Positions 18,096 to 37,631 of a stretch of DNA of 64,000 bases are shown here, one piece after another. The translations under genes were made by a program, and so were the position numbers. The notes below the pieces were generated by a model, which saw only the letters and a program-made list of their open reading frames with translations, was not told where the DNA came from and ran no database searches. Source of the DNA: Paenibacillus sp. PvR098 (lineage in GTDB: Bacteria > Bacillota > Bacilli > Paenibacillales > NBRC-103111); assembly GCF_017833255.1 (NCBI RefSeq), contig NZ_JAFIBU010000001.1:1550001-1614000 (forward strand), written 5' to 3'. Positions within the stretch are counted from its first letter, which is position 1. Each line of letters opens with the position of its first letter.

Positions 18096-18108
18096 CCACC
18101 CCTCTAGT

Positions 18109-22762: not shown

Positions 22763-23497
22763 CTAAGATTTTTCAATTTGTTCTTTTTTGGAATAAAAAA
22801 TCGTTTGTGCAGTTTCTATAATATCGCTCTGGGATTCCCTGATATGAAAGAGCATCGCCTGAAAGGCCTCGTTCGCATTTCGGCTTTTCAAAGCATTGTA
22901 TATTTTGATATGTGCCTCCGTTGCCTTATACGGATTAGCGGGAGGCGAGAACGCGCGGCTGCGGTAATCGTGCATGGCAGGGATAAAATTGGAGTACATA
23001 AAATACAGCAATTCATTGCGGCTTGCTTTTAAAATCATTTCGTGAAAAAGCTCATCCCCCTTAACAATTTCCTCCAGCTTGTGATCCTCAATCGATTTTA
23101 CAAACTCCTCATAGAGAGCTCCCAATTGTTCCAACTCTTCATCGGTTATTCTTTGCGCAGCCAAAGAGGCGGCCATCGGTTCAATCGCCATTCTCGCTTC
23201 CAAAAGCTCCTGGATCTTAAACTCATTGGTTTGAAACCATTCCACAAACTTTTTTTTGTCAAAATCCACCTTATCGATGACAAAGGCGCCTATGCCCCGT
23301 CTGATTTCAATGTAGCCTTCCGCCTGAAGGGTGATGAGTACCTCCCTTACCGAAGGACGGCTAATCCCTAATTGGGCAACCAATTGGTATTCGGGAGGAA
23401 GTTTCTCTCCCACGGGTATTGTTCCCGATGTAATTAACTCTTTTATACGTTCTAGCGCTTCTTCCGTGACCGGTGTCCTCTCTAATGGGTTCAGCAT
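22763..23497 (-). CDS. FCD-domain GntR-family regulator 1
   Basis: 244 residues: GntR winged helix (about 5-75, LPPEYQLVAQLGISRPSVREVLITLQAEGYIEIRRG) and a C-terminal FCD ligand-binding domain with the metal-site histidines (ELFHEMILKASRNELL). It is a paralogue of the regulator at 26680, sharing the unusual N-terminal NPL-x-RTPVTEEALE. Located inside the Tct operon, it probably represses it and responds to the transported acid or a product (inference). Start ATG 23497 with GGGAG 8 bases upstream; a GTG three codons before lacks spacing to the site. Confidence 0.85.
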   Translation of the reverse strand: MLNPLERTPVTEEALERIKELITSGTIPVGEKLPPEYQLVAQLGISRPSVREVLITLQAEGYIEIRRGIGAFVIDKVDFDKKKFVEWFQTNEFKIQELLEARMAIEPMAASLAAQRITDEELEQLGALYEEFVKSIEDHKLEEIVKGDELFHEMILKASRNELLYFMYSNFIPAMHDYRSRAFSPPANPYKATEAHIKIYNALKSRNANEAFQAMLFHIRESQSDIIETAQTIFYSKKEQIEKS

Positions 23498-23522
23498 GAA
23501 TTCCACTCCCGTTCATAATAAA

Positions 23523-24191
23523 TTACAACACTCCGTATTTTGAATAAGCTTCTTTGACACTCATTCCCTTCATTATACCATCACGCACTACATTTTCCTT
23601 ACTTACTTTCACCATTGCTTTTGAAATGACCTCTTCTTCAACTGCCGAAGGAATAACAACGATCCCATCAATATCCGCAAATATAAGATCATTCGGATTA
23701 ACGGTCACACTCCCGCACCCAACGGGTATATCATAATCGATAACCTCGTTTCGTCCCAAGGAATCGGTTGGCCGGAATCCGCATGTAAAAAGCGGGAAAT
23801 TTAACTGTTTGATCTTGCTCGTATCACGAGTGAGTCCGAAGATAATCGCGCCGCGTCCTCCATTTTGCATCGTTGCCGTAGCCATCAATTCTCCGAAAAA
23901 AGCGGACCGTCGAGAACCGCTTACCGTAGCAACAAATATCTCGCCCTCCTTAATTGAATCCAGAGCTTCCATCTGCTTAAGATAGGCCTCTTGAGGTATC
24001 CGATATACATCGGCTGCTAATACAGTTTTCGCCCTGCCCACCAAGACCGTATCGCCGGTCAAAGGACGAATCTCGGGGTCCATCGTCTGGTTGCGATAAC
24101 CAAGTTCATCAAGAATATCCGAAATCACTGCGGAATACAATTTGGTTTGTAACTCATTATAGTACTCGTGCGTGTATTTATTTTCTACCAT
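23523..24191 (-). CDS. RraA-family protein, 4-carboxy-4-hydroxy-2-oxoadipate aldolase-like
   Basis: 222 residues of the RraA/demethylmenaquinone-methyltransferase-like fold. The GGRGAIIFGLTRDTSKI segment supplies the Arg-Asp pair that in HMG/CHA aldolases binds the divalent metal and substrate, and NPNDLIFADIDGIVVIP is the conserved C-terminal motif. Active aldolases of this family cleave 4-carboxy-4-hydroxy-2-oxoadipate to pyruvate and oxaloacetate, the last step of protocatechuate 4,5-cleavage; that would tie it to the LigB enzymes in the neighbouring island (inference). Others of the family are RNase E inhibitors or unknown. ATG 24191 with GGGGGA upstream, within the Tct operon. Confidence 0.75.
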   Translation of the reverse strand: MVENKYTHEYYNELQTKLYSAVISDILDELGYRNQTMDPEIRPLTGDTVLVGRAKTVLAADVYRIPQEAYLKQMEALDSIKEGEIFVATVSGSRRSAFFGELMATATMQNGGRGAIIFGLTRDTSKIKQLNFPLFTCGFRPTDSLGRNEVIDYDIPVGCGSVTVNPNDLIFADIDGIVVIPSAVEEEVISKAMVKVSKENVVRDGIMKGMSVKEAYSKYGVL

Positions 24192-24286
24192 GAGTAATCC
24201 CCCTTTGCTGGTCGCAGTATTTGCTGCACCATGATAAGTATATTGGACGAAGACCCATTGTCATCGTCCCTGAACCTACCAACCTG

Positions 24287-25306: not shown

Positions 25307-25394
25307 GGTCAAGCCCCCCAACTAAATTTGTACTCAGAGTTTTATTCATATTACATAAAACCTTCGATTTCCAGCATATTTACTGAATGAATGC

Positions 25395-25408
25395 AGTAAG
25401 CGCTTTCA
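25395..25408. promoter_or_regulatory. cre-like site upstream of tctC
   Basis: On the minus strand TGAAAGCGCTTACT matches the CcpA consensus except the last base. It lies in the leader of the Tct operon, suggesting catabolite repression. Motif only. Confidence 0.4.
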
Positions 25409-25495
25409 TTTATTATTTAAGAGAACCACTTCCGTTTTCAATCAGAGACGAAAGACCATAGTGGAAGCTGCGGTTTCTGCTGCATTTGGTAGATT

Positions 25496-25523
25496 GGCAA
25501 AGGACCGATCAAGGTCCTTTGCC
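25496..25523. terminator. Hairpin at the end of the DapA-like gene
   Basis: Perfect 11-bp stem GGCAAAGGACC / GGTCCTTTGCC with a 6-base loop, 75 bases after the DapA-like stop. The T-rich tail is on the plus side, so termination of the minus transcript is uncertain. A closely similar hairpin (29113-29138) follows the pseudogene copy. Confidence 0.45.
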
Positions 25524-25598
25524 TTTCTTAGGAAATAAAATGAACAACCGATGAGGACTTACTTGCTAATCTATGAAAAGTAAACCGTTACAAGAAAG

Positions 25599-26492
25599 TT
25601 ATCGTAATGCTTCTTCTTGAAGCACTTGAGCGTGAATCAACCCTTTGCGGATTTCCTCTTTACCGGCCTCGTCGATCGGATGGAAAGGGCTGCGCGGCAC
25701 CCCAACATTAAATCCGCGCTGTCTGAGCACTTCTTTCGTGCGAGCCGGCATATTCGTTTTATCCATCGAGAGCCAGGTCGGCAGCATCATGTAGTGGATT
25801 TCCTTGGCACGCTCGAAATCTCCGCGCTCAAACGCTTCCCATTGTTCCACACACAGCTCCGGCAGTACGGTCAGAATGGCCGCAATGGCACCTTCTGCGC
25901 CAAGCACGTAGGTAGGATACAATAAAGCATCTACCGCACTGTAAATGATCTGGTCTTTTGGCAGGGTCAGCACCATCTTGTTCAGTGCATGGATATCGCC
26001 ACCGCTCTGTTTGATACCGGTTACATTTTTAATGGCGGCCAGACGTTTCATGCATTCCGGCGTAATTACCGCTGTCGCCACTACGTTGTAAATGATAATT
26101 GGAAGGTCGACCGCATCGCTGATTTCCTTGAAGAAGGCATAATGCGCTTCGTCGTCCGGCTTGAAATAGTGAACCGGTGTAATCATCAGGTAATCCGCGC
26201 CTGCATCACGGGCGGCTTCTGCGAAAACGATGGCATCTTTGGTGCAGTCACGGATAATCCCGGCAATAAGAGGAACCCGGTCCTGAATAACTTCCCGTCC
26301 AATGGTAAGCAAGCGGTGCAGTTCATCTGGGGATAAAGCGTGACCTTCCCCTGTGCTTCCCCCGATGCTGATTCCGCCGACGTTACTGGACAACAAGAAG
26401 CGAAGATGCTCGCGGAACAACTCTTCATTAATCGTTTCGTCCTCATTAAACGTAGTAACGGCCGGTGGGATGATGCCTCTTAATTTTTTCAC
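25599..26492 (-). CDS. DapA/dihydrodipicolinate synthase family aldolase (2-keto acid lyase type)
   Basis: 297 residues, TIM-barrel Schiff-base lyase. GGSTGEG (44-50), Tyr135 in IIIYNVV and the Schiff-base Lys161 in GIKQSGGD are all present. True DapA for lysine synthesis is unlikely given the catabolic context; relatives cleave or dehydrate 2-keto-3-deoxy sugar acids or 4-hydroxy-2-oxo acids. Start is GTG 26492 with AGGAAGG upstream. It stands alone, controlled by the palindrome at 26516-26537 that is also found in front of the TRAP operon, and a broken paralogue lies inside that operon (29147-29717). Its bases look more GC-rich than neighbouring genes, hinting at separate origin. Confidence 0.82.
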   Translation of the reverse strand: MKKLRGIIPPAVTTFNEDETINEELFREHLRFLLSSNVGGISIGGSTGEGHALSPDELHRLLTIGREVIQDRVPLIAGIIRDCTKDAIVFAEAARDAGADYLMITPVHYFKPDDEAHYAFFKEISDAVDLPIIIYNVVATAVITPECMKRLAAIKNVTGIKQSGGDIHALNKMVLTLPKDQIIYSAVDALLYPTYVLGAEGAIAAILTVLPELCVEQWEAFERGDFERAKEIHYMMLPTWLSMDKTNMPARTKEVLRQRGFNVGVPRSPFHPIDEAGKEEIRKGLIHAQVLQEEALR

Positions 26493-26515
26493 AAAGTCAC
26501 CTTCCTATTTTTGAT

Positions 26516-26537
26516 AGATGTCTATTGTCTGACATCT
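26516..26537. promoter_or_regulatory. Palindromic operator, probable FCD-regulator site
   Basis: AGATGTC-N8-GACATCT, a perfect 7-bp inverted repeat 24 bases upstream of the DapA-like start. The core GATGTC-N8-GACATC recurs at 35597-35616. Assignment to the FCD regulator at 26680 is inference from adjacency. Confidence 0.6.
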
Positions 26538-26619
26538 TACTTTTATTATAGAATCAAACCTTGGAGTAGTCAATATCATTTGGAAAATTTTATTACTTTC
26601 TCATGAATCGTAATGCCAT

Positions 26620-26650
26620 AAAAAAAGCAGTTGCGGATACCCAACTGCTC
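26620..26650 (-). terminator. Rho-independent terminator after the FCD regulator 2 gene
   Basis: Stem GCAGTTG / CAACTGC (26627-26648) followed on the minus strand by seven T. It closes the long transcription unit starting at dctQ and separates it from the DapA-like gene. Confidence 0.85.
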
Positions 26651-26679
26651 CATGTTTCCGCACCTCTTTCCCACTTGAA

Positions 26680-27408
26680 TTAATTAGGATTGTGCTTGGT
26701 TGACGATACGATTTTTCGTATTTTACCTGTCACATCGGTCTTCGACGCTTTAATATGATCTATCATCGCGTCGTACGTTTTTTGAGCATCACGTTCTTTT
26801 AATGCTTGAATGATCTTATAATGCGGTTTTATAGCAAGCGTAGGATCTGCCGGCGGTGAAAATACGTTTCTCCGATACTCCTGAAGGACAGGTATTACAT
26901 TGGAATAAAAGAATTCTAACAGCTCATTTTGGCATACTTTAATGATTTTGAGATGAAAGCCTTCATCTAAAGCAATCATATCCTCTACCTTTTTAGCTTG
27001 GATGGCCTGAATGAAATTTTCCTGGATTTTCTCCAGCTCTATGATATCATCATCTGTTATTTTTTGAGAGGCTATAAGAGCGGAATATGGCTCAATCGTC
27101 ATTCGGACTTCCAATAGCTGATGTATTTTAATTTCATTTTTTTGAAACCACTCGATAAATTTCCGTTCATAAAAATCGGAGCTGTCGATAACAAATGCGC
27201 CTTTACCCCTTTTAATTTCAATAAAGCCCTGGGCTTGTAAAGTAATAAAAACCTCTCTAGCCGTACTGCGGCTAATGCCTAACATGGAACTAAGTTGAGT
27301 TTCAGTTGGCAGCCGCTCACCCACTTTGACCTTCCCAGAATGGATCAATTCCATGACTTGTTCCAATGCTTCTTCTGTAACAGGTGTTCTTATTAACGGA
27401 TTAATCAT
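26680..27408 (-). CDS. FCD-domain GntR-family regulator 2
   Basis: 242 residues; winged helix (RLPTETQLSSMLGISRSTAREVFITLQAQGFIEIKRG) plus FCD domain (DEGFHLKIIKVCQNELLEFFYS). Paralogue of regulator 1 at 22763. It is the last gene of the TRAP/LarA/DhaKL unit and is followed by a terminator, then by a palindromic operator in front of the DapA-like gene. It is the natural candidate for binding both copies of that palindrome. Start ATG 27408 with AGGAGG 11 bases upstream; an earlier ATG (27432) contains the site itself and is less likely. Confidence 0.86.
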   Translation of the reverse strand: MINPLIRTPVTEEALEQVMELIHSGKVKVGERLPTETQLSSMLGISRSTAREVFITLQAQGFIEIKRGKGAFVIDSSDFYERKFIEWFQKNEIKIHQLLEVRMTIEPYSALIASQKITDDDIIELEKIQENFIQAIQAKKVEDMIALDEGFHLKIIKVCQNELLEFFYSNVIPVLQEYRRNVFSPPADPTLAIKPHYKIIQALKERDAQKTYDAMIDHIKASKTDVTGKIRKIVSSTKHNPN

Positions 27409-27428
27409 GGGCAAGCGTGCCTCCTTCC

Positions 27429-28067
27429 TCATGTTTTTATGTTTTTGTGCTCAGCATTTTTCGTTAAATCTAATATAAACTCATACAATTGATAGCATAC
27501 CCACGCGCCCCCATCGACATTGCCCAAAGCTCGCTCGCCTAGCCAGCTGGAACGGCCGATTTTGGAAACCAAGGACGCCGTACTTTCGGCTGACTGCTTT
27601 GCTATATCAGTTGTCTCAGTCAAAATCTGCTGTACGCTTTTCCCATCATCCACGCCGCTGCTGAAGACTTGCACAGCCGGAATCAGGGCATCCAATACCG
27701 TTTTATCCCCCAGCTTTGCTCCTCCCCGCTTTTGAATTTCTTCCACCATACAGCTTTGGATTCCGACCCAATCTCCCAAAGTAAGGACCATTTTCTCAGA
27801 ATCTAACGATTTGCCAGCAGATATTAATGCGGAAGCAATCAAGATGCCCATCGTAGAAGGAGCTGCTTTGCGCAAAGCTTTCCCTCCAATTTCAAACCAT
27901 TCCTTCACAGTATGACAAGACGTTGCACTTTCCGCTAAAGCTTCGGCCCCCAAAATAATCGTAACACCTAAATCTCCATCACCTTGAGCCCCGTCAAGTT
28001 TATTCCACGCTTCCTTGTTACGTTCCGCAAATTCAACCAGCAGTGGGCTCATTTTTTTGAAATCCAT
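27429..28067 (-). CDS. dhaL: DhaL-like (ADP-binding) subunit of a dihydroxyacetone-kinase-type kinase
   Basis: 212 residues, all-helical DhaL/DAK2 domain. GAQGDGDLG (about 27-35) supplies the Mg-binding aspartates, although the usual His of the GDGDHG motif is Leu here; GGAKLGDKTVLDAL is the second conserved segment. It transfers phosphate to the substrate bound covalently on DhaK. ATG 28067 lies 3 bases after the dhaK stop, with GAGGGGG upstream, so the two are coupled. No DhaM (PTS) gene is present, so the phosphate donor is probably ATP (inference). Substrate may be a C3-C4 ketose or similar, not necessarily dihydroxyacetone. Confidence 0.82.
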   Translation of the reverse strand: MDFKKMSPLLVEFAERNKEAWNKLDGAQGDGDLGVTIILGAEALAESATSCHTVKEWFEIGGKALRKAAPSTMGILIASALISAGKSLDSEKMVLTLGDWVGIQSCMVEEIQKRGGAKLGDKTVLDALIPAVQVFSSGVDDGKSVQQILTETTDIAKQSAESTASLVSKIGRSSWLGERALGNVDGGAWVCYQLYEFILDLTKNAEHKNIKT

Positions 28068-28070
28068 CAA

Positions 28071-29084
28071 TTACACCCCCTCGAATTGCTTAAAGAAAGG
28101 AGAATCCGCAGGCGCATCGAGGTACCCTTTCAATTCACTATCCAGCTTAAGGAGAGTGATCGAACAACCCGCCATATCTAGTGATGTCGCATATTCGCCG
28201 ACATACGTCCTGTAAATTTTGATATTTTGCTTGGACAACAAGATGTGGACCTCACGATTCACAATATATAATTCTTCCAAAGGCGTAGAGCCGGAACCGT
28301 TCACAAGCATCGCAACCTCATCGCCCGATGATAACGTTAAATCTTCCGACAAATATTGTACAATCTCTTGTACAATTTCTGCAGCCGGTTTAAGCTTACT
28401 TCGTCTTATACCCGGCTCCCCGTGAATCCCCATTCCGATTTCCATCTCATCCTCTTCAATGTCAAAAGTAGGATTTCCAGAAGCAGGAATGATACACGAG
28501 GAAAGAGCCACGCCCATGGTCGCCATTTTCGAGACCGCTCTTTCAGTAACTTCTTTCACCTTTTCCAAAGGCACCATCGTTTCTGCGCATGCTCCCGCTA
28601 TCTTGTAAGCAAAAAAAATGCCGGCCACACCTCTTCGGTTTTGCCAACTATCCCGTGGTGCAGACGCTGCATCATCGGAGACACGAACGGTTTTCACGCT
28701 AATGCCGTCTTCCTCTTCCAGCATTTCCGCAGCCAAATCAAAATTCATTTTGTCCCCGAAGTAGTGCCCATACAGGAATAGAACTCCCTCTCCACCATGG
28801 ATCTCCTTGGCTACGTTCACCATGGCATCCGCACTGGGTGAAGTAAACACATTGCCGACAGACGATCCGTCTGCAAGACCTTTACCTACATAGCCAAGAA
28901 ACACCGGAAGATGACCGGATCCTCCGCCCGTTGCGATGGCCACTTTCCCTTTGACCGGCGCATCCGCCCGAACGATCCCCTTCTTCTCATCACTTGGGAA
29001 ACGCAGTTGCTTGGGATAGGCATAAACGATACCTTCCAATGTCTCGTCAACAAACGCCATAGGGTCATTAATTATCTTTTTCAT
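28071..29084 (-). CDS. dhaK: DhaK-like substrate-binding subunit of a dihydroxyacetone-kinase-type kinase
   Basis: 337 residues. The covalent-binding His221 is in GMGIHGEPG, and GGGSGH (53-58) forms the substrate site. The loop normally reading NYTGD-x-MNF is here YGHYFGDKMNF, so this is a divergent member, perhaps acting on another ketose such as erythrulose or a keto acid (inference). With DhaL it forms a soluble kinase. It sits between the DapA-like pseudogene and dhaL in the long minus-strand unit. ATG 29084 with TGAGGTGAG upstream. Confidence 0.83.
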   Translation of the reverse strand: MKKIINDPMAFVDETLEGIVYAYPKQLRFPSDEKKGIVRADAPVKGKVAIATGGGSGHLPVFLGYVGKGLADGSSVGNVFTSPSADAMVNVAKEIHGGEGVLFLYGHYFGDKMNFDLAAEMLEEEDGISVKTVRVSDDAASAPRDSWQNRRGVAGIFFAYKIAGACAETMVPLEKVKEVTERAVSKMATMGVALSSCIIPASGNPTFDIEEDEMEIGMGIHGEPGIRRSKLKPAAEIVQEIVQYLSEDLTLSSGDEVAMLVNGSGSTPLEELYIVNREVHILLSKQNIKIYRTYVGEYATSLDMAGCSITLLKLDSELKGYLDAPADSPFFKQFEGV

Positions 29085-29112
29085 CCAGGCTCACCTCAAC
29101 TAATTTGAAATG

Positions 29113-29138
29113 GGAAAAGGACCCGATGGTCCTTTTCC
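29113..29138. repeat. Hairpin homologous to that after the intact DapA-like gene
   Basis: GGAAAAGGACC-CGAT-GGTCCTTTTCC, a perfect 11-bp stem almost identical to 25496-25523. It lies 9 bases beyond the pseudogene stop, showing that the duplicated unit included the downstream hairpin. Confidence 0.55.
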
Positions 29139-29146
29139 ATGAACAC

Positions 29147-29717
29147 TTAAGCTTCCCATTGCTCTACACATAACTCCGGCAGTACTGTCGGCAGTGCTGC
29201 GATGCAGCCCTCGGCTCCGAGCACATAGGTCGGATACAACAGCGCATCCACTGCGCTCCAGACGTGCTGATCTTTCGGAAGCGTTAACACCATTTTGTTC
29301 AATACATGGATGTCCCCGCCGCTCTGCTTAATCCCTACGACATTCTTGATTGTTGCAAGCCTAGCCATGCATTCCGGCGTGATGGCCGCCGTCGCTACCT
29401 ACCACATTGTAGATGATAATCGGCATGTCTATCGTATTGCTGATTTCACTGAAGAACGCAAAGTGCGCCTCAGCGTCCGGTTTGAAATAGCGAACCGGGG
29501 TAATCATCAGGTAGTCAGCTCCCGCATCCTGGGCCGCCATCGCGTAAGCGATTACATCTCTGGTGCAATCACGGATGATACCGGCGATGATCGGAACACG
29601 TCCCTTTACCTCGTCGCCCGTAATCATCAGCAGCCGGTGCAGTTCATCTGCAGACACCGCGTGCCCTTCCCCAGTGCTTCCCCCGATGCTGATTCCGCCG
29701 ATGTTAACCGAAAGCAA
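29147..29717 (-). pseudogene. DapA-family pseudogene (paralogue of 25599-26492)
   Basis: Encodes sequence closely matching residues 34-227 of the intact DapA-like protein, but about 33 N-terminal codons and 70 C-terminal codons are missing, and the frame breaks at 29396-29403 where TACC is duplicated in tandem (TACCTACC), a 4-base insertion. The first frame (upper coordinates) holds GGSTGEG, the second holds GIKQSGGD and ends EQWEA-stop. The 3' end joins directly to the flank carrying a hairpin like that of the intact gene. It lies inside the TRAP operon, between the LarA-like gene and dhaK. The intact copy probably took over its function. Confidence 0.88.
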
Positions 29718-29764
29718 GTTACGACAGTGTCAATACATATTGTTTGACCTCTCAGCCCATCTAC

Positions 29765-31087
29765 TTAAAATAAATTTCCACTTTCATTAAAGGCCATATC
29801 CTTGGGTTCCTCTAAAATTTCTATACTCGAATGCTTCCTTGCTTCGTCCAAAAGACTTTCGGAAATGAGGATCTCCTCCACTTTTAACGTATTCTTGATC
29901 CTGACTACTCTGACATTTTCATGGTTTATACCGACGCAGGTCTGGATACCGGCTTGAATAGCAAGCCGGTCATTGGCTAAGATAATAGGAATTTTGCCCG
30001 GTCCCGAAACAGCAGGAGTAATATTGTTTGGATACGTTTTTTCAAAATCCATCTTATCGAATGCTCTCTGCACTGTGAAATCAGCCATCCCTAGCCCGCA
30101 AGCATTACCATGCGTCTCCTCGGTTAAATCCAAAACAATCGTTCTTTGCTTCACGGCTCCGCCTGTTGCATAGGGTGTGGAGAAATTACCTGTAATGTTG
30201 GGGTCCGCACCGTCCCCGCTGATGTTTTTGCCAATCTCGTCGATGATCAGTACATCAAATTCATTGAGCAAAAGTGACGGCATGTGCTGTTTAGCTTCCT
30301 CAAGCAGAACAGGCTCTTCATCCAAAATGTCCTCTGCAGGAACGGCATGGATTTTTCTGGTCTGATCATAGGCATTCTCCATGACAGCCACGCCAAACAG
30401 AATATTGCACGATTCCAGTATGATCTTAGCTCCTGCAACGATGTTGAGTGCCATGTTTTCAAAGCCGTGGGAATGGCATATTTGTGCGCCTTTCTGTTTA
30501 CCAAGACCAATGGTAAGCATTTTTACAAGGCCGCTCTCATAAAGACCTCTGAAAGCAGTATGAGGCTTCACACGATTGACCACCACAATGCCATCTGCCT
30601 CATAGGCATATTTATCCAGGTAAACGGGCAATCCGTATTCTGTTTCCCCTACTTTAATCGTCTCAGTAGTCGCTAGCACCGGGCAACCCAAGAATACCTC
30701 GTTGATACCATAGCTCTCAAGAATTTCCAACTGCCCCTTTACCGTCGCTCCTCCGTGACTTCCCATGGCCGGAATGATAAAAGGCTTTCCGCCGACACGC
30801 TTGACTTCATCCACAATCGCTTTGGTGATCTTATCGATATGGGGAATACCCCTGCTGCCAGCAGTAATTGCGACGGTTTGCCCGTACCGGATTTTATCCA
30901 AGGTTCCAGGCCGTTCCAACTGCTTGTTTACTGCCCTTTCAATGTCATGAATTTGGAAGTCACCGAACGTTTGCCTAACCCTGCACATTCTCGGCAATCG
31001 CGTGCCGCCCAAAATTTGGGCGACCACGCCATCGGCTTTGGCTATTTTGGTGCTGCGATTCGCTCGACCATGCTCAGAACCATTCAA
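29765..31087 (-). CDS. LarA-like (DUF2088, nickel-dependent racemase family) protein
   Basis: 440 residues. Visible family segments are GSHGGAT near residue 110, and RVKPHTAFRG-YESGLVKMLTIGLGKQKGA, typical of lactate-racemase-domain proteins that use a nickel-pincer cofactor to move a hydrogen on 2-hydroxy acids. LarBCE cofactor genes are not in the window. Start assigned to TTG 31087, ten bases after AAAGGAGG; upstream in-frame sequence includes the ribosome site. It lies between dctP and the pseudogene in the long operon, so a hydroxyacid substrate is plausible (inference). Epimerase or dehydratase activity is equally possible. Confidence 0.78.
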   Translation of the reverse strand: MNGSEHGRANRSTKIAKADGVVAQILGGTRLPRMCRVRQTFGDFQIHDIERAVNKQLERPGTLDKIRYGQTVAITAGSRGIPHIDKITKAIVDEVKRVGGKPFIIPAMGSHGGATVKGQLEILESYGINEVFLGCPVLATTETIKVGETEYGLPVYLDKYAYEADGIVVVNRVKPHTAFRGLYESGLVKMLTIGLGKQKGAQICHSHGFENMALNIVAGAKIILESCNILFGVAVMENAYDQTRKIHAVPAEDILDEEPVLLEEAKQHMPSLLLNEFDVLIIDEIGKNISGDGADPNITGNFSTPYATGGAVKQRTIVLDLTEETHGNACGLGMADFTVQRAFDKMDFEKTYPNNITPAVSGPGKIPIILANDRLAIQAGIQTCVGINHENVRVVRIKNTLKVEEILISESLLDEARKHSSIEILEEPKDMAFNESGNLF

Positions 31088-31131
31088 TTTTCCTAGTCCT
31101 CCTTTGCATTGGAGCAATCAACCTAGTTATA

Positions 31132-32196
31132 TTAATTTTTTGCAGCATTAAGCAGATTATCGACTAAGTCCGCTCCAAGCTCCGCTCTGTATTTATCATA
31201 AACCGGTTTAAGCTTATCAACGAATTCCTTATGGGCTTCCGGAGTCATGTCATGAACAATCATTCCTTTATCCTTAAGGAATTGAACCGCAGCCTTATTT
31301 TCCTGCTGACTTAGCTCTCTTTGATATTTGGTTGCTTCATCCGCCGCCTTTTGCAGCGCCTGCTGTTCTTCTTTCGTCAAGGTGTCCCAGAATTTTTGAC
31401 CGATGATTAGCGGGTTAACATTATAGACATGTCCCGTGTTGATTAAGTATTTTTGTACTTCGTACATATTTTTAAACTTGATGTTCGTATATGGATTTTC
31501 CTGCCCGTCAACAACCTTTTGCTCCAGGGCTGTGAATAATTCCGTAAAGGCTATTGCTGTCGGAGTCGTTCCAAGAGCTTTCCATGTGTCCAAGTGAATC
31601 GGACTTTCCTGGGTACGAATCTTCAACCCCTTCAAATCAGCTACCGTTTTGATATCCTTGGAAGCTGTTGTTAAATGCCGAAAGCCGTTCTCCATATAAC
31701 TTAACCCGATTAGATTCAGATTCTTCAAATCAGCCAGAACCTGTTTCCCGATCTCACCGTCAAGTACTTTATAAGCACTGGCTTCATCTTTAAACAAGAA
31801 GGGAAGCTCGAATAAATTCATGGATTTGGAGCTCGATGCTAATGGTGCGGAGGCTATGCTTGCCGCCTGCAGAGTACCCGCTTTCAGGGAATTGATCATT
31901 TGGACGTCTCCACCGAGAGTGCCGTCGGTGAATACTTCGACTTTAATGGCTCCCTTGGTTTCCTTTTCCGCAAGCTCAGCAAATTTAAAAGCCCCTTTGG
32001 ACATCGGATGATCCTTAGGCGATGCCGTGCCAAACTTCATCGTCTTAGGCAGCTTATTTCCTGCCGGTGCGGTACCTGTTGTCTTCGGACTTTCGGCTGG
32101 CGGCTGAGCCCCAGTCTCTGCAGGGGTCGTTTTGGAACCACATCCAACCATTGTAACCAAGCTGGCCAGAAGTAAAAAACTAACGACTTTTCTCAT
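31132..32196 (-). CDS. TRAP transporter substrate-binding lipoprotein (DctP type)
   Basis: 354 residues, lipobox with Cys19 (TMVGC), Pro/Thr-rich linker, then the DctP fold: FGTASPKDHPMSKGAFKFAE, GGDVQMINSLKAGTLQAA, the conserved Arg in LKGLKIRTQESPIH that binds a carboxylate, and ALGTTPTAIAFTELFTALEQKVVDGQENP. It delivers an organic acid to the DctQM pump encoded upstream; the three genes are separated by an alcohol dehydrogenase gene. ATG 32196 with AAAGGGAGAGG. The carboxylate-binding Arg supports an acid substrate. Confidence 0.9.
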   Translation of the reverse strand: MRKVVSFLLLASLVTMVGCGSKTTPAETGAQPPAESPKTTGTAPAGNKLPKTMKFGTASPKDHPMSKGAFKFAELAEKETKGAIKVEVFTDGTLGGDVQMINSLKAGTLQAASIASAPLASSSKSMNLFELPFLFKDEASAYKVLDGEIGKQVLADLKNLNLIGLSYMENGFRHLTTASKDIKTVADLKGLKIRTQESPIHLDTWKALGTTPTAIAFTELFTALEQKVVDGQENPYTNIKFKNMYEVQKYLINTGHVYNVNPLIIGQKFWDTLTKEEQQALQKAADEATKYQRELSQQENKAAVQFLKDKGMIVHDMTPEAHKEFVDKLKPVYDKYRAELGADLVDNLLNAAKN

Positions 32197-32259
32197 TTTG
32201 AACCTCTCCCTTTATTTAAAATTTATGAAGCCGCATGAGAAATAAACTCGGACAGCCGA

Positions 32260-33366
32260 TTAAATAACCATGCTGCCTTTCTTTACGCTTTCACCTAAAT
32301 GATGGGCATCAAGAATGGATTCATACACGTTTTCTTCCAGAATAGGGAAAGGCAGCCGATGAATCAGCTCCTCCGGAGCGCAAGCTTTCGTGGCACCTTT
32401 ACGCAAATCATCCTCACGAAGCTCCGCCATACCAAGATCAAATAAACTAATCGGCAGATGTATCCTTTGGTAAAACTTCATCATTTCGATTATTTCCTCA
32501 TCCGGTTTCCCTTCCAGCTTGAATTGGCCTAAGAGACCGAATGCCACCAGTTCCCCATGATAAGCTTTTTTCATGTCCGGGATGATCGTCATCCCATAGT
32601 GAATCGAATGTGCGCCAGACGATGCGCAGGTGTGCCTTCCAACCCCTGCTACAAATCCGGCTATAAGAATAACCGCATCGATGACTAGACGGAGTGATTC
32701 GCCGGTTTCCCCTTTTTCACATTCTTGTATCGCTTGTTCGCTGTTTTCAATCAATATGTCTCTTGCTAATTCCGCCATTTTGAGTCCTGCTCTAGTCTTG
32801 GCATTCTGAAACTTGCCGGTATTTAATGGAATGGCTTCATACCACTTCACGATGGTGTCACCGATGCCGGCAGTCAAATACCGTACAGGAGCATCCCGAA
32901 TAATATCCGGATCTACCAAAGCCAGAACCGGGCAGCGGTTGAAATCCTCCACTCGCACAAATACATGCTCAGGAGTATAAATAATGGACAAAGGACTTGA
33001 GGCGGCACAAGTGGATGCCAGTGTGGATACAGTAACAACGGACACGCTCAAACGCTGCGCAATTGCTTTGGCCGTATCCAAGCACTGTCCCCCACCCACA
33101 CCAACCACGATATCAATGGAAGCATTTGCTTTGGAGAACAAGCGGTTGAGTTCCTCATCCGAACAATGACCTTTAAACATTTCCAACTGGTAATTGAGCC
33201 CCGCTTCATTCATGCTTTGTTCGATTTGCGGCCCTGCTTTGGACCAGGCAGTGGGTCCTGCGATAATCAACGGATGGTTACCAAACTTTTTGACCCATTC
33301 TCCCGTCTCCCTTAGAATACCCGGTTCCTGAATATAATTGGTCGGATACGCCTTCACTCTAAACAT
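32260..33366 (-). CDS. Iron/zinc-type (GldA-like) alcohol dehydrogenase
   Basis: 368 residues of the dehydroquinate-synthase-like fold. NAD site GVGGGQCLDTAKAIA (about 94-108), TVSTLASTCAASSPLS, and metal ligands in the SGAHSIHYGM...YHGELVAFG region resembling glycerol dehydrogenases. It may oxidise a polyol or hydroxyacid to a keto compound that the DhaKL kinase then phosphorylates (inference from operon order). It lies between dctM and dctP in the TRAP operon. ATG 33366 after AGGAGG. Confidence 0.84.
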   Translation of the reverse strand: MFRVKAYPTNYIQEPGILRETGEWVKKFGNHPLIIAGPTAWSKAGPQIEQSMNEAGLNYQLEMFKGHCSDEELNRLFSKANASIDIVVGVGGGQCLDTAKAIAQRLSVSVVTVSTLASTCAASSPLSIIYTPEHVFVRVEDFNRCPVLALVDPDIIRDAPVRYLTAGIGDTIVKWYEAIPLNTGKFQNAKTRAGLKMAELARDILIENSEQAIQECEKGETGESLRLVIDAVILIAGFVAGVGRHTCASSGAHSIHYGMTIIPDMKKAYHGELVAFGLLGQFKLEGKPDEEIIEMMKFYQRIHLPISLFDLGMAELREDDLRKGATKACAPEELIHRLPFPILEENVYESILDAHHLGESVKKGSMVI

Positions 33367-33404
33367 GTCGTGTACCTCCTGATTTTAAATCATCTTTTTT
33401 AACC

Positions 33405-34688
33405 TTAACGCTTTGTCAACCACTCCACCGGAACGGTGACAAGCGGAGGAAACAGAATGAGCAACAGCAAGATGAGAATTTCAACCAATAAAAACGGCCA
33501 AATATTCTTCATAATATCGTCCATTCCGATCTTCCCAACCCCGCATGCGACATTAAGCACGGAACCGACAGGCGGAGTAAGTAAGCCGATGACGTTGTTA
33601 AGTACGAAAAGCAAGCCAAAGTATACCGGATCGATGCCCGCCTGAGTAACGATCGGCATTAGCACCGGTGTTAAAATGAGAATGGTAGGCGTCAAATCCA
33701 GTGCCGTACCGACAATCAAAATCAAGATATTGATCATAATGAGAAGCATAAATTGATTTTCCATAAATGGTTCAAGCATGCTTGCCACTTCAATGGGAAT
33801 ATTGGCAACGGCAATTAACCAGGCGGATATCATCGCAGCAGCTGCAAGAAACATCACTACGCTTGTTGTTTTGGCTGCAGAGAGGAGCACTCGACTTAAA
33901 TCGCTTATTTTCAATTCTCGGTAAACAAAAAGGCCAATGAACAATGCATAAAAAGCTGCAATGGCGGCCGATTCGGTCGGAGTGAACACACCACCCCGGA
34001 GGCCTACTATGATAATCACAGGTAATATTAACGCCCATACCGCTTCTTTCGTTGCCACAAGGACTTCTTTGAACGATCGGCGCTTCTCGGTTTTCACTTT
34101 TTCTTTTCGAGTAACAATCCACCAGGTAACGGTTAGACCGAGTGCGATGAGAAGGCCGGGAACGATTCCAGCCATAAACAACTTGGTAATAGATACCCCT
34201 GCAGATACCCCAAATAAAATCATCGGAATGCTGGGAGGAATAATGGGGGCGATAATGCCTCCAGCAGCGACCAGTGCCGTAGACCTGCTGCGATCATATC
34301 CTGCTCTGACCATCATGGGAATCAGAATAGCTCCCAACGCTGCCGTATCCGCTACAGCCGAACCGGACAATCCCGCAAAGATCACGCTTCCAATAATGAC
34401 TACATATCCTAATCCACCGTGAATATGTCCGACGAGGGACATCGCAAATGTGATAATCCGCTTGGAAATTCCTCCGGCATTCATCAACTCGCCTGCCAAA
34501 ATAAAGAACGGAACAGCCATCAATGGGAAATTGTCCGCACCATCGATTAGATTTTGCGCAATAATTTGCGTGTCAAAAATATCAAGATAAAACATTAAAG
34601 CGATACCGGTTAACATTAGAGAAAATGCAATCGGCATACCCAAGGCCATAGTACCGAGCAGTGTACCGACAAATACAGTCATTGTCAT
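33405..34688 (-). CDS. TRAP transporter large permease (DctM type)
   Basis: 427 residues, about 12 membrane segments, with the family motifs PLMAVPFFILAGELMNAGGI and IPPSIPMILFGVSAG. It is the pump component coupling solute entry to a sodium or proton gradient. The start ATG 34688 overlaps the stop of the small permease gene by ATGA, so the two are translationally coupled. Gene order and direction match a complete TRAP system with dctP at 31132. Confidence 0.92.
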   Translation of the reverse strand: MTMTVFVGTLLGTMALGMPIAFSLMLTGIALMFYLDIFDTQIIAQNLIDGADNFPLMAVPFFILAGELMNAGGISKRIITFAMSLVGHIHGGLGYVVIIGSVIFAGLSGSAVADTAALGAILIPMMVRAGYDRSRSTALVAAGGIIAPIIPPSIPMILFGVSAGVSITKLFMAGIVPGLLIALGLTVTWWIVTRKEKVKTEKRRSFKEVLVATKEAVWALILPVIIIVGLRGGVFTPTESAAIAAFYALFIGLFVYRELKISDLSRVLLSAAKTTSVVMFLAAAAMISAWLIAVANIPIEVASMLEPFMENQFMLLIMINILILIVGTALDLTPTILILTPVLMPIVTQAGIDPVYFGLLFVLNNVIGLLTPPVGSVLNVACGVGKIGMDDIMKNIWPFLLVEILILLLLILFPPLVTVPVEWLTKR

Positions 34689-35248
34689 GCCTTTTCGCTC
34701 CTTTGTACATGAGGATCCCGAGGCACCGATGCCGATAGTATTTCTTCCTCAGATTCAAGTTTCTTCGTAAGTTCATCAATAGCATGACGAACAAACAAGG
34801 CGCGGTACAAATTAATCAGCAGAACAATAGTCATGCCTACACTTACCACAACGCCAAGTCCGTAAATGTAGGAAAGGGGAAGACCGGTCGCAGGGGCCAA
34901 AACTTCCTTGCTCACAAGGGTCATGCGCCACGCTCCGTCAAATAAAATATAAAGTCCGCATAACATGAGCAGATTACTTGCAACGTAAACCATCTTTTTC
35001 CCCATAGGCGGTAACTTTTTTACAAGCGAATCTACACCCAAGTGCTCATTATCTTTCAAGGCACCGATCGATCCTATGAAGATCAACCAGATAAACAGAA
35101 ACCTGGAAATTTCTTCTGACCATGTAATACCATAGTTGAACGCGTACCTCATGATGACATTACCGAAAACAAGAATAGCCATAGAGGACAACGTAATGAT
35201 CATCAGTCCATTCAGCAAGCTTGTTAAAGAAGTCGAAAGCTGTTTCAC
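34685..35248 (-). CDS. TRAP transporter small permease (DctQ type)
   Basis: 187 residues with four membrane helices; the ITWSEEISRFLFIWLIFIGSIGAL segment is the hallmark of DctQ. GTG 35248 preceded by AGGAGGGG. First gene of the long unit that I read as dctQ, dctM, alcohol dehydrogenase, dctP, LarA-like, DapA pseudogene, dhaK, dhaL, FCD regulator 2. The 668-base region upstream carries a cre-like site and the shared palindromic operator. Confidence 0.9.
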   Translation of the reverse strand: MKQLSTSLTSLLNGLMIITLSSMAILVFGNVIMRYAFNYGITWSEEISRFLFIWLIFIGSIGALKDNEHLGVDSLVKKLPPMGKKMVYVASNLLMLCGLYILFDGAWRMTLVSKEVLAPATGLPLSYIYGLGVVVSVGMTIVLLINLYRALFVRHAIDELTKKLESEEEILSASVPRDPHVQRSEKA

Positions 35249-35358
35249 TTAATTCCCCTCCTATTAGCTCCTTACGTCTGAAGGTCGGGCTATGCCTGGA
35301 GTTCATATGATCTGTTTGGCTATCATTGTAATGTAAAAACGACTCCTCTTGTTATCGC

Positions 35359-35372
35359 TGCAAACGCTTACA
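35359..35372. promoter_or_regulatory. cre-like site upstream of the TRAP operon
   Basis: TGCAAACGCTTACA matches the CcpA consensus at 13 of 14 positions and lies 111 bases upstream of dctQ. Suggests catabolite repression of the operon; motif only. Confidence 0.45.
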
Positions 35373-35596
35373 TAAAATGAACCAATCATTCTTTGCTTCG
35401 TGTATATCATAACTTACATGCTTTTCCGCTTCCGGGGAAGTTTACTATTGCTGAAGGGCATAAACCGAAGATGTCAGTCATTATGATGTTGATGCTCTTT
35501 ATATAGGATGGTCTCCGAAGAAATAATACCGAAATGAAACCTTTTATTTTTTCCTTTACATCCATACCCCCTTTACATTTCAGTCTTTTTTTGAAT

Positions 35597-35616
35597 GATG
35601 TCTTACAACTGACATC
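35597..35616. promoter_or_regulatory. Second copy of the GATGTC-N8-GACATC operator
   Basis: GATGTC-TTACAACT-GACATC, the same core and the same 8-base spacing as 26516-26537. A half-site GATGTC occurs at 35470-35475. It lies about 350 bases upstream of dctQ, so either the leader is long or it also serves another start. The rest of 35249-35596 shows nothing else recognisable. Confidence 0.55.
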
Positions 35617-35734
35617 TGACTATTTCCCCATTTTAGATGGTAAATTTTAAACTGTCAACATAAATATTCAGTCATAAAATAAAGCAAAAAGTGTCCGAAA
35701 CTCCTTCTGTCAAGCAATAACCTTCATCTGCTTG

Positions 35735-35768
35735 AAAATAAAAAAACCCGCACCATGAAGGGTACAGG
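35735..35768 (-). terminator. Rho-independent terminator after the class II aldolase gene
   Basis: On the minus strand CCTGTACC-CTTCAT-GGTGCGGG (two G-T pairs) followed by TTTTTTTATTTT. It separates the class II aldolase gene from the TRAP operon promoter region. Confidence 0.7.
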
Positions 35769-35916
35769 CATTGTTGTAAAGTGACATTTGATATCACGGA
35801 CTCTCGATATTCTTTTCGGAAAACCCATCTTCCTAATCCCAGAGCCCTTTTCCTTAAAACTACACATCTGTTTTTAAATGATGCTCTTGCATGGTTCCCC
35901 CCCATATTTATCAAAG

Positions 35917-36609
35917 TCACTTCTCAGCCCGGTCAGCCCAATACCCCCATGCTCTCTCCAAAGGTACCGGACTGAACATCACTTCCATAGCCGCTCTTCC
36001 TTCTTCGTAGGAGAGATATTTGGGTGAGCCAAGCATCATGGAACGATATTGAATTTCTGCATTCGTGGCAAGATAAATGGAGCTCATAACTACTTCTTCA
36101 AGAGAAGAGCCGACTACGATAACTCCATGCCCTCGCAGCAATAACGCCCGTTTGTTCCCCAAGGTTCGAGCTACCCGTTCCGCTTCCTTTGGGTTCATAA
36201 TTAACATGCCGCTTGATACGTCCCCATCATCAAATACAGGAACTCCCTCATAAAACATACCGCCTATATGTATGATGGGTTTAACTTCCACCCCTGTTGT
36301 AGTAAAGGGAATAAGCGATGTCGCGTGATTATGGCAAATGGCCTTCACATCCGGTCGAGCTTTATAGATCTGTGCATGTAACACACGTTCCATATAGGGT
36401 TTATAATCCTTATCCAAAACATTCCCATCAAAATCGTGAGTCATTATGTCATCTTCAGTTACTATGGAAGGAGACTTAGAACGGGACAATAAATAGAGAT
36501 CGGGGTTTTCCGGGTGTCTTGCGCTTACATGTCCAAAAGCATCCAATATGCCTTCGTTACTTAACATCTTGTTCGCCAATACCAATTTTTTGATTGTGTT
36601 TTCGACCAT
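35917..36609 (-). CDS. Class II aldolase/adducin-family protein
   Basis: 230 residues. FGHVSARHPEN near the N-terminus, CHNHATSLIPF with two zinc histidines, and LRGHGVIVVG with a third His form the metal site of L-fuculose-phosphate aldolase-like enzymes and of related decarboxylases. ATG 36609 with GGAGGGA; the open frame extends 34 codons upstream but overlaps the divergent promoter region. It is transcribed alone, divergent from a LysR regulator gene, and ends at a terminator. Members next to LysR and sugar-acid genes act on phosphorylated 3-oxo acids or hydroxyketo acids; the exact role is open. Confidence 0.82.
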   Translation of the reverse strand: MVENTIKKLVLANKMLSNEGILDAFGHVSARHPENPDLYLLSRSKSPSIVTEDDIMTHDFDGNVLDKDYKPYMERVLHAQIYKARPDVKAICHNHATSLIPFTTTGVEVKPIIHIGGMFYEGVPVFDDGDVSSGMLIMNPKEAERVARTLGNKRALLLRGHGVIVVGSSLEEVVMSSIYLATNAEIQYRSMMLGSPKYLSYEEGRAAMEVMFSPVPLERAWGYWADRAEK

Positions 36610-36623
36610 AAGAATCCCTCCAT

Positions 36624-36655
36624 ATTTATAATCACTTTCAAAATTGATTATAAAT
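36624..36655. promoter_or_regulatory. Inverted repeat in the lysR/aldolase divergent region
   Basis: ATTTATAATC-N12-GATTATAAAT, perfect 10-bp arms, beginning 14 bases before the aldolase start. Likely operator; could also be read as part of the promoters. Confidence 0.4.
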
Positions 36656-36666
36656 ACAAATGAAGT

Positions 36667-36698
36667 ATGATACAATTGAAAAATAGTCATAGTATCAT
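36667..36698. promoter_or_regulatory. Second inverted repeat in the same divergent region
   Basis: ATGATAC-N18-GTATCAT, perfect 7-bp arms, 36 bases before the lysR start. Candidate LysR recognition site; inferred. Confidence 0.4.
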
Positions 36699-36734
36699 GC
36701 GGTTTTCGCATCTTAAAATGGAGGTTCTACACTA

Positions 36735-37631
36735 ATGGATTTAGAAAATCTCGTTACGTTTTGTGCCGTTGCCCATCACAAAAGCTTCAAAAAGGCGGCA
36801 GAAACTTTACAGGTTACACAGCCAGGGATAAGCAGACGAATTCAAAGCCTTGAAACTGAACTGGGAACTCCCTTGTTTGTGCGGACGCCACAATCCGTTA
36901 CTCTAACTAAAGCAGGGAAAAGCTTCTTACCCTATGCAGAACGTACGATTCAAATATTTAGAGAGGGAAAAAACAAAATATCGGACGAGGTACATGAAGA
37001 AAAATTGGTGATAGCCTCTCCGCCGACTACAAGTGTTAACCTGCTGCCGGAAGTGATTAAAGAATTCTGTTTACATCACAGTACACGCCTTTCCCTATAT
37101 ACCGCCCATTCACAACATGTTTATGACATGTTGATAGACAAAACCATAGACGTGGGCTTTACTACGGTCGCTTTCCCTAATTCCCATTTGGATTATGAGC
37201 TCATTTACATGGAAGAGGTCGTTTGTGTGGGCCACCCGGATGTGGTTAAGCAATATATCGTTGACCACGAGATTATCAAACACCCTGTACCTATTATATT
37301 GTCTAATTTAAATAATATTAACATCGATCCATGGGAATCGATCAATCAGTACTTTTTAAATCATCCCTCATTTGAGATCGTCCTTGATGCATTTTTTCTT
37401 CAAGTTGTGGAAAATTTGGCCCGCATTGGAGTAGGCTTAGCCGTATTACCTATTTCACATGTAAATGAAGGAATAAAAAGAGGCGAGCTTGTTAAAGTGC
37501 TCTTACCCGAGATAGATTTACCGTCCAGGCCAGTATATATGGCCACCTATAAGAATGGTAAAATGGAGAAATCCATCCATCACTTCAAAACAACGGTAAA
37601 ACGGGTATTAGCCAAAAACTCACTCTTATAG
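36735..37631 (+). CDS. LysR-family transcriptional regulator 2
   Basis: 298 residues: helix-turn-helix KSFKKAAETLQVTQPGISRRIQSLE (15-40) and effector domain from about residue 90. Divergent from the class II aldolase gene, which it presumably controls. ATG 36735 after ATGGAGG. Followed by a plus-strand terminator at 37750. It is not closely similar to the LysR at 19750 beyond the family. Confidence 0.85.
   Translation: MDLENLVTFCAVAHHKSFKKAAETLQVTQPGISRRIQSLETELGTPLFVRTPQSVTLTKAGKSFLPYAERTIQIFREGKNKISDEVHEEKLVIASPPTTSVNLLPEVIKEFCLHHSTRLSLYTAHSQHVYDMLIDKTIDVGFTTVAFPNSHLDYELIYMEEVVCVGHPDVVKQYIVDHEIIKHPVPIILSNLNNINIDPWESINQYFLNHPSFEIVLDAFFLQVVENLARIGVGLAVLPISHVNEGIKRGELVKVLLPEIDLPSRPVYMATYKNGKMEKSIHHFKTTVKRVLAKNSLL

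Follow-up and report, generated by a model that had tools for sequence, protein, structure and literature searches.

The oxidative sugar-acid routes to 2-oxoglutarate and the retro-aldol routes of 2-keto-3-deoxy acids (Weimberg, Dahms) have in common with the pathway proposed here a sugar acid, a dehydration and a DapA-family step. As opposed to these routes, the operon described below encodes a kinase, but no dehydratase and no semialdehyde dehydrogenase. Its isomerase belongs to group 22, a large LarA family that NCBIfam names by number alone. LarA relatives take many small 2-hydroxy acids, according to PMC11770544, and the GntE enzymes (LarAH19, LarAH20 and LarAH15) are D-gluconate 2-epimerases that convert D-gluconate to D-mannonate (PMC7583248, PMC11770544). 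GntE and the protein studied here are of the same fold family, with nickel-pincer-nucleotide (NPN) chemistry expected in both, but GntE enzymes fall into LarA groups other than 22. Group 22 does not appear in the table of 13 homologues in PMC7583248, and neither 'group 22' nor 'LarAH22' occurs in the main text of PMC11770544; we assume that the NCBIfam group number follows the numbering of these two papers.

On the regulatory side, regulons of the FadR subfamily (FCD), such as those of LldR and GlcC, have the same GT-N3-AC core as the sites reported here. Unlike in those regulons, core and accessory half-site here combine, at each of the two targets, into a perfect palindrome of 20 bp.

A TRAP operon and a lone dapA behind one palindrome

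The window, the whole 64-kb stretch of DNA that was analysed, lies on contig NZ_JAFIBU010000001.1 of Paenibacillus sp. PvR098. On the minus strand, the operon reads dctQ, dctM, a GldA-like gene, dctP, larA, dhaK, dhaL and FCD2, followed by a terminator-like stem, which confirms the predicted place of this FCD regulator as the last gene. All three TRAP components (DctP, DctQ and DctM) are present. The features, in window coordinates, are:

35630..35658, minus, predicted TRAP-operon promoter P1, TTGACA-N17-TAAAAT, 11/12 consensus match
35597..35616, unstranded, putative operator O1, GATGTC-N8-GACATC, starting 13 nt past the P1 -10
35468..35477, minus, extra half-site CTGACATCTT, between O1 and dctQ
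35359..35372, unstranded, cre-like box, one mismatch
34685..35248, minus, dctQ, TRAP small permease (PF04290)
33405..34688, minus, dctM, TRAP large permease
32260..33366, minus, GldA-like iron-type polyol dehydrogenase (PRK09423)
31132..32196, minus, dctP, TRAP solute-binding lipoprotein
29765..31117, minus, larA22, NPN isomerase group 22 (NCBIfam NF052515)
29151..29717 (about), minus, decayed dapA copy, both ends missing (PF00701, two frames)
28071..29084, minus, dhaK-like kinase subunit (375.7 bits)
27429..28070, minus, dhaL-like kinase subunit (98.7 bits)
26680..27432, minus, FCD2, GntR/FCD regulator and candidate repressor, final gene of the operon
26651-26624, minus, terminator-like stem 3' of FCD2
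26545..26573, minus, predicted dapA promoter P2, TTGACT-N17-TATAAT, 11/12 consensus match
26517..26536, unstranded, putative operator O2, GATGTC-N8-GACATC, starting 8 nt past the P2 -10
25599..26492, minus, dapA-like class I aldolase/dehydratase (PF00701, 197.4 bits)
25380..25399, unstranded, tentative FCD1 operator, TTACTG-N8-CAGTAA, 12 nt past a promoter-like site
22763..23506, minus, FCD1, a paralogue 53% identical to FCD2, in an adjacent TTT/RraA-like unit

The palindrome GATGTC-N8-GACATC stands exactly at 26517-26536 and 35597-35616, as the original prediction had it, apart from a start of 26516 for the left copy. The 4.7-Mb genome has no further exact copy, so the genome-wide scatter that the prediction had named as its counter-case is not seen. 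With at most one mismatch, the pattern occurs at 11 places in the whole genome, the two exact copies included, and the control pattern read backwards at 1. Eight of the nine one-mismatch sites were placed; as seven of these lie wholly within open reading frames of at least 150 aa, we set them aside as extra regulon members. At up to two mismatches, the window holds 5 matches against 1.83 expected; as many are seen in 4 of 100 shuffles, and we therefore give weight to the exact copies alone. For these, chance is ruled out by the genome-wide counts and by shuffling the two intergenic regions 5,000 times, which never gave such a palindrome common to both.

Of 30 promoter-like sites in 24200-37000, where 22.5 are expected, P1 and P2 rank highest. 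The core of O1 is ATGTCTTACAA, or TTGT-AAG-ACAT read on the minus strand, and that of O2 is TTGT-CTG-ACAT on the plus strand; both contain the FadR-type GT-N3-AC core. The half-site CTGACATCTT recurs as an identical 10 nt at 26529-26538 within O2 (two in the window against 0.17 expected; 1 of 100 shuffles reaches two). PMC4494728 gives GT-N3-AC or GT-N2-AC as the usual FadR-subfamily operators, which makes the 20-bp outer palindrome unusual, and describes accessory half-sites in the subfamily. The palindrome resembles a core of the FadR subfamily joined to an accessory half-site.

One regulon with two operators, uniting the TRAP operon and the DapA-like gene as first suggested, is thus well supported by sequence. 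FCD2, with winged helix-turn-helix and FCD domains (PF00392, 56.9 bits; PF07729, 94.2 bits; both above cut-off), is likely its autoregulated repressor and would bind O1 and O2. Its matches at E 1e-38 are confined to its own genome among 398 genomes (up to 6 candidates scored in each), and operator footprinting across orthologues is therefore not possible. The box at 35359..35372, one mismatch away from the cre consensus, is a possible catabolite repression site.

Enzymes of the regulon

Against NF052515 the window LarA scores 541.1 bits (curated cut-off 400), placing it in group 22. It has the LarA fold, and its true start probably lies downstream of the listed TTG. Residues R89, H121, H186, K199 and H215, invariant in 36 of 36 alignment rows, are matched, by motif and order rather than by residue-level superposition, to the catalytic histidines and NPN-binding residues of LarA1 (H108, H174, R75, K184 and H200; PMC11770544). 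With both histidines kept in all 36 rows, the protein falls outside the subfamily in which Asn replaces one of them (PMC12393405). A search by sequence at E 0.01 matched no PDB chain. The genome also encodes NPN synthesis, with LarB (300.5 bits), LarC1 (215.6 bits) and LarC2 (136.9 bits) all above cut-off, larC1 and larC2 being separate genes on opposite strands, and a TIGR00268 match (357.6 bits, above cut-off) that is presumably LarE.

At E 1e-40, 86 of the 398 phylum genomes searched encode a group 22 LarA. This genome holds at least five copies (4 of 12 candidates scored) in differing settings, most of which look like sugar-acid use. One paralogue adjoins KdgD and KGSADH; another TRAP-LarA22 cluster carries ALDH and Fe-ADH. 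Two of the paralogues lie near 366 kb and 2.32 Mb. So many paralogues in varied settings of one genome make the function directly testable with defined substrates. From gene context, we read group 22 as probable sugar-acid 2-epimerases. A bolder and decidedly tentative extension is that these nickel-pincer enzymes serve as entry-step adaptors for several sugar-acid pathways, here feeding an undescribed route that ends in retro-aldol cleavage and in phosphorylation by a DhaKL-type kinase whose preference for dihydroxyacetone (DHA) has been lost.

Members of the class I DapA superfamily carry a TGE motif, a Tyr and a Schiff-base Lys, all recognisable in the window DapA-like protein (GSTGEG, YNVV and GIKQS). 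In DHDPS, an active-site Arg follows YNVPS. Where 2yxg has this Arg, the alignment shows a gap in the window protein, which scores 174.7 bits against a curated DHDPS cut-off of 206.15. We therefore rejected a role in canonical lysine biosynthesis. Between larA and dhaK lies a decayed dapA copy, 75% identical in nucleotides to the intact gene over 558 aligned positions, which had escaped the original prediction; the operon probably once had its own dapA.

DhaK and DhaL both miss their NCBIfam equivalog cut-offs (375.7 against 406.25 bits and 98.7 against 138.3 bits). They are thus divergent in sequence, as predicted, but not in orientation, being transcribed the same way as the rest. The DHA-site residues of E. 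coli DhaK are H56, K104, D109 and H218. In the window DhaK, the positions of H56, D109 and H218 are kept, whereas K104 is replaced by Gly and E57 by Leu; this altered pocket suggests a kinase activity that has yet to be assigned. A PTS-type DHA kinase was rejected, as the genome has no TIGR02364 (DhaM) match; 3 of 14 control genomes do. The GldA-like protein scores 331.3 bits against PRK09423, just below the cut-off of 336, and 241.3 bits against the propanediol/glycerol equivalog (cut-off 700).

Related clusters in other genomes

For the neighbourhoods of LarA22, we kept the best 80 of at least 585 relatives from an alignment query (a single-protein query found none), so distant members are under-sampled and near-copies over-counted. 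Some loci end at contig ends, and neighbour labels are best matches in the chosen query set. Many of these relatives lie in gluconate operons (GntK/Gnd) or in TRAP-IlvD-FAH-KGSADH-DapA clusters. In 14 of the 80, the DctM upstream of larA22 is 62-79% identical to the window DctM, and 13 of these 14 have IlvD. The clusters of Neobacillus, Parageobacillus and kin (TRAP-DctP-LarA22-IlvD-IclR-FAH-KGSADH-DapA) share the TRAP-LarA22 pair with the window, but carry IlvD, a FAH-family gene, mostly KGSADH, and IclR where the window has the GldA-like gene, DhaK, DhaL and FCD2; their DapA is of a different subtype (28-32% identical). The TRAP-LarA22 pair belongs to conserved Bacillota clusters that look like sugar-acid routes. 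A tree was built from 78 loci and 5 own copies, 83 rows in total, after two of the 80 loci had been dropped for short or interrupted rows; in it, the window LarA lies outside both large context clades, with a best identity of 55%, so its substrate may differ. Its sister, at locus L049, adjoins hydrogenase-like genes, with ORFs judged by eye, and is not informative.

A second relative, locus L047 (genome G433, same family, other genus), combines FCD, ABC, TRAP, FAH, two DapA, DhaK, DhaL and KGSADH genes. Identities to the window are 81% for DhaK, 72% for DhaL, and 45% and 38% for DapA, and the K104 position of its DhaK is also Gly. One DapA directly precedes DhaK, a place that the broken copy takes in the window, and an FCD regulator occurs together with TGTC-N8-GACA upstream of TRAP, at the outer spacing seen in the window. 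Unlike the window, L047 carries a FAH-family gene, KGSADH and an ABC transporter, and no LarA22 or GldA-like match was found in its 19 kb. The L047 site is without the GT-N3-AC core, and a search of its gene strand gave no promoter-like site; its support is therefore limited to the half-site and the spacing.

The original prediction knew of no pathway with this gene combination. The full set was found nowhere else among the 80 LarA22 loci (best of at least 585), which show no DhaK, DhaL or GldA relative, or in DhaK searches of 104 family and 392 order genomes; with L047 lacking LarA, it rests on one genome. Among the papers listed from open-licence PMC, none describes it. Part of the puzzle is answered by the TRAP-LarA22 pair in conserved clusters and by the recurrence of TRAP-DapA-DhaK-DhaL in one other genus.

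Proposed route and alternative readings

We give a probability of about 0.55 to an inducible, FCD2-repressed regulon for sugar-acid (aldonate-like) catabolism, ending in DapA and a DhaK/DhaL-like kinase; its substrate, step order, inducer and dehydratase we infer. Without inducer, FCD2 would occupy O1 and O2, which follow closely on the two predicted transcription starts, and block dapA together with the TRAP operon, its own gene included. The acid would enter through DctPQM, and LarA22 with its NPN would invert the C2 hydroxyl. A dehydratase encoded elsewhere would yield the 2-keto-3-deoxy acid, which DapA would split into pyruvate and a short aldehyde or ketose, to be phosphorylated by the DhaK/DhaL-like kinase, probably with ATP; the GldA-like enzyme would interconvert a polyol or ketol intermediate. 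Decay of the operonic dapA would explain why the lone gene retains an operator copy of its own. Of the sequence first imagined (import, epimerisation, kinase and aldol steps), import and epimerisation of a polyhydroxy acid remain reasonable, but a gene in trans would have to supply the dehydratase that the operon lacks. Candidates lie elsewhere; the 1.4-kb gap upstream of the candidate FCD-IlvD (locus L153) has no TGTC-N8-GACA or GT-N3-AC match. The operator pair offers a ready means for inducer tests, and the inducer would name the substrate; the gene set in turn points to a likely job for a nickel-cofactor enzyme family.

The regulon could be real and its substrate no sugar acid but a C3-C4 hydroxy, branched or sulfonated acid, with LarA22 as a simple racemase of 2-hydroxy acids and a non-triose ketose as the substrate of DhaKL. 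We hold this to be unlikely: it would suit the place of the window LarA outside the large sugar-acid context clades, the Gly at the K104 position, the paralogous TRAP-LarA22 cluster with ALDH and Fe-ADH, and the small 2-hydroxy acids accepted by LarA relatives (PMC11770544), but DctM of at least 62% identity precedes LarA22 in 14 of 80 loci (best of at least 585), 13 with IlvD, and L047 again has DapA and KGSADH alongside DhaKL.

Binding of the palindromes by a regulator other than FCD2 is improbable. Both window sites have the GT-N3-AC core, the FCD2 gene lies inside the operon and adjoins dapA with no further regulator gene in the operon, and L047, also with an FCD regulator, has the same outer spacing; in favour of another protein are the coreless L047 site, the outer palindrome unusual for the subfamily (PMC4494728) and the confinement of FCD2 matches to its own genome among the 398, which leaves no orthologues for footprinting. 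Distinctly improbable is a relic, an acquired sugar-acid island that is losing genes and no longer works. The broken dapA and absent dehydratase, the DhaK match in 2 of 392 order genomes, own included (E 1e-125), and transposase-like ORFs about 15 kb away (judged by eye) would agree with decay, but the remaining operon genes are open frames, and an intact dapA is kept with a perfect operator copy and a promoter-like site.

The FCD1 palindrome TTACTG-N8-CAGTAA overlaps a cre-like box and, by eye, lacks the GT-N3-AC core; its one-mismatch genome count is 5 against 8 for the backwards control, and exact 6-N8-6 palindromes, whatever their sequence, occur 25 times in the window. It is therefore kept as tentative and not accepted as proof of a common 6-N8-6 geometry. 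The FCD1 unit probably has its own regulon.

Two copies of one palindrome at two promoters

The palindrome GATGTC-N8-GACATC occurs as two exact copies in the window, one upstream of dctQ (O1) and one upstream of the lone dapA (O2), as the original prediction had stated, with the dapA copy starting at 26517 rather than 26516. The sequence makes a strong case for a regulon with two operators, laid out around the following features.

Features of the predicted promoter and operator regions
26517-26536: exact palindrome, candidate operator O2
26573-26545, minus strand: promoter-like site P2, TTGACT-N17-TATAAT, score 11/12
35359-35372: cre-like box
35468-35477: additional half-site CTGACATCTT
35597-35616: exact palindrome, candidate operator O1
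35658-35630, minus strand: promoter-like site TTGACA-N17-TAAAAT, score 11/12

The palindrome is not widespread: with up to one mismatch, the genome (one contig, 4,704,906 bases) holds 11 matches, only these 2 being exact, against 1 match for the pattern read backwards as a control. Eight of the 9 one-mismatch sites were placed, and 7 of these 8 fall wholly within ORFs of at least 150 aa. The intergenic regions preceding dapA and dctQ (187 and 668 nt) were dinucleotide-shuffled 5,000 times: no shuffle gave the two a common 6-N8-6 palindrome, and 2 gave them a common 6-Ng-6 palindrome when g could take any value from 0 to 12. Exact 6-N8-6 palindromes of any sequence number 25 within the window and are hence common as a class; the unusual feature is one identical palindrome standing twice, at two promoters.

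A simple scan of 24200-37000 picked up 30 promoter-like sites where 22.5 (sd 5.5) would be expected. The total is thus of little meaning, but just two sites, both on the minus strand, reach 11/12. The palindrome starts 13 nt after the −10 box at O1 and 8 nt after it at O2, positions at which transcription initiation would be blocked by a repressor sitting on the site. Read on the plus strand for O2 and the minus strand for O1, the sites share the wider consensus GATGTC-NN-TTGT-NN-GACATC, which has 5 window matches with up to 3 mismatches (0.47 expected) and contains GT-N3-AC. According to PMC4494728, operators of the FadR subfamily usually have the GT-N3-AC spacing, with additional half-sites reported 7–12 nt away; because of this core and these extra half-sites, we read O1 and O2 each as a predicted FadR-type core plus an accessory half-site.

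FCD2, the GntR/FCD regulator proposed as repressor, has one other own-genome match at E 1e-38, its paralogue FCD1 (53% identical; 6 of 33 candidates scored), which sits in a TTT/RraA-like unit adjoining the regulon (22763-25408). There, TTACTG-N8-CAGTAA, with one exact copy in the genome, lies before tctC and begins 12 nt after a promoter-like site (10/12). It is a tentative candidate for an FCD1 operator, given that it coincides in part with a cre-like box and has no GT-N3-AC core. Cre-like boxes are enriched across the window (1-64000), with 18 matches at up to one mismatch where 4.4 would be expected and 0 of 100 shuffles reaching 18, near-palindromic sites being counted on both strands. 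Further away, at 797-19356, genes that resemble Rieske-type and extradiol dioxygenases, accompanied by genes for ABC transport (ORFs read by eye), probably serve aromatic degradation. Upstream of the regulon (35917-37631), a class II aldolase-family gene and a divergent gene, LysR-type by eye, are separated from it by a terminator-like stem at 35769-35746.

Operon genes and a related cluster

The gene order is dctQ, dctM, GldA-like, dctP, larA, a broken dapA, dhaK, dhaL, FCD2, a terminator-like stem, P2, O2 and dapA, bearing out the earlier placement of FCD2 as the last gene of the TRAP operon before a terminator. The broken dapA gives PF00701 matches in two frames and is 75% identical to the intact gene over 558 aligned positions, with both ends missing. 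The aldolase gene may lie outside the operon because the copy within it decayed, leaving the outside copy and the separate operator in front of it, an order of events that we infer. Assignment of the dapA product as DHDPS was ruled out by sequence comparison.

At E 1e-125, a search of 392 genomes of the order gave a DhaK match in 2, the host included; the other is G433, of the same family and another genus, whose DhaK is 81% identical. Its cluster comprises FCD, ABC, TRAP, DctP, FAH-family, DapA, DapA, DhaK, DhaL, KGSADH and further genes, with KGSADH at 863.5 bits (cut-off 770) and the FAH-family protein below its closest equivalog cut-off (228.4 vs 500). The tandem dapA pair lies directly before dhaK, the position of the broken dapA in the window. 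Upstream of the TRAP genes stands TGTCTG-N4-CAGACA, that is, TGTC-N8-GACA with the outer spacing of O1 and O2 but, unlike them, without the GT-N3-AC core; by our own arithmetic, ~0.02 such TGTC-N8-GACA sites are expected in the ~1.3 kb of intergenic DNA scanned, and the promoter scan found none near the site on the gene strand.

Residues H56, K104, D109 and H218 form the DHA site of E. coli DhaK. Both the window and G433 proteins keep the positions of H56, D109 and H218, with Gly replacing K104 and Leu replacing E57. The DhaK/DhaL-like kinase is probably ATP-dependent, because a profile search of the host genome returned no DhaM match.

LarA group 22 and the proposed pathway

The window LarA belongs to nickel-pincer nucleotide isomerase group 22 (LarA22), found at E 1e-40 in 86 of 398 genomes of the phylum, 85 above the family cut-off. 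Among the best 80 loci of at least 585 relatives, many closely related and some truncated by contig ends, neighbours (labelled by their best hit among selected query proteins, E 1e-10) were SDR (38), FGGY kinase (29), Gnd (24), TRAP (22), IlvD (19), UxaA (18), DapA (18) and ALDH (13). DhaK, DhaL and window-type GldA appeared in 0 of these 80. Of the gene combination named in the original prediction, the subset TRAP-DapA-DhaK-DhaL recurs in G433.

Two settings are large: LacI-LarA22-gluconokinase-SDR-Gnd with variants, and TRAP-LarA22-IlvD-IclR-FAH-KGSADH-DapA. A DctM 62–79% identical to that of the window precedes larA22 in 14 of the 80 loci, 13 of which have IlvD. Within the host genome, other LarA22 copies adjoin gluconokinase and Gnd, KdgD and KGSADH (both pairs above cut-off), or TRAP, ALDH and Fe-ADH, and one lies near an ABC-permease-like gene. 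Sugar-acid epimerisation, which PMC7583248 and PMC11770544 describe for LarA relatives of other groups, fits most of these settings; PMC7583248 cautions that the activity cannot always be read from the neighbouring genes. The tree holds a 35-row clade with 29 gluconate-type rows and a 16-row clade with 14 TRAP-type rows; the window LarA falls outside both, at no more than 55% identity and with a single long-branched sister, which makes its substrate less certain.

The regulon is real and rare, assembled from known parts, and we hold the pathway claim with moderate confidence. The substrate acid would be taken up, epimerised at C2, dehydrated in trans, cleaved by the aldolase and phosphorylated; what the GldA-like enzyme would do is the least certain part. 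Two candidates could supply the dehydratase: an IlvD homologue at ~679.8 kb, which shares 63% identity with a LarA22-linked IlvD of Neobacillus, and a YjhG/YagF member that lies at ~107.7 kb and scores 1166.3 bits (cut-off 808.15). Neither a TGTC-N8-GACA nor a GT-N3-AC site occurs in the gap preceding the IlvD candidate.

Among the LarA cofactor genes, larC is split at L132:7120-9430 (host contig, about 4,271,119-4,273,429), with larB-larC1 on the minus strand and larC2 convergent on the plus strand, each above its family cut-off. For the larC2 half, the match to PF01969 extends across one TGA immediately before the ORF, and L132:5000-11000 contains no inverted repeats of at least 16 nt. In the LarA22-gluconokinase operon (L041:8370-14495, L064), LacI, gluconokinase, SDR and Gnd are 91–94% identical to those of Paenibacillus naphthalenovorans, and the tree pairs the LarA22 copies as sisters, so that this species is probably a near relative of the host. 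Another host locus, L155:7270-16150 (~2.31–2.32 Mb), reads TctB-TctA-FCD-TctC-LarA22-KdgD-dehydrogenase-KGSADH, probably an operon for aldarate use that includes a nickel-pincer epimerase, and its TctA is 77% identical to that of the window.
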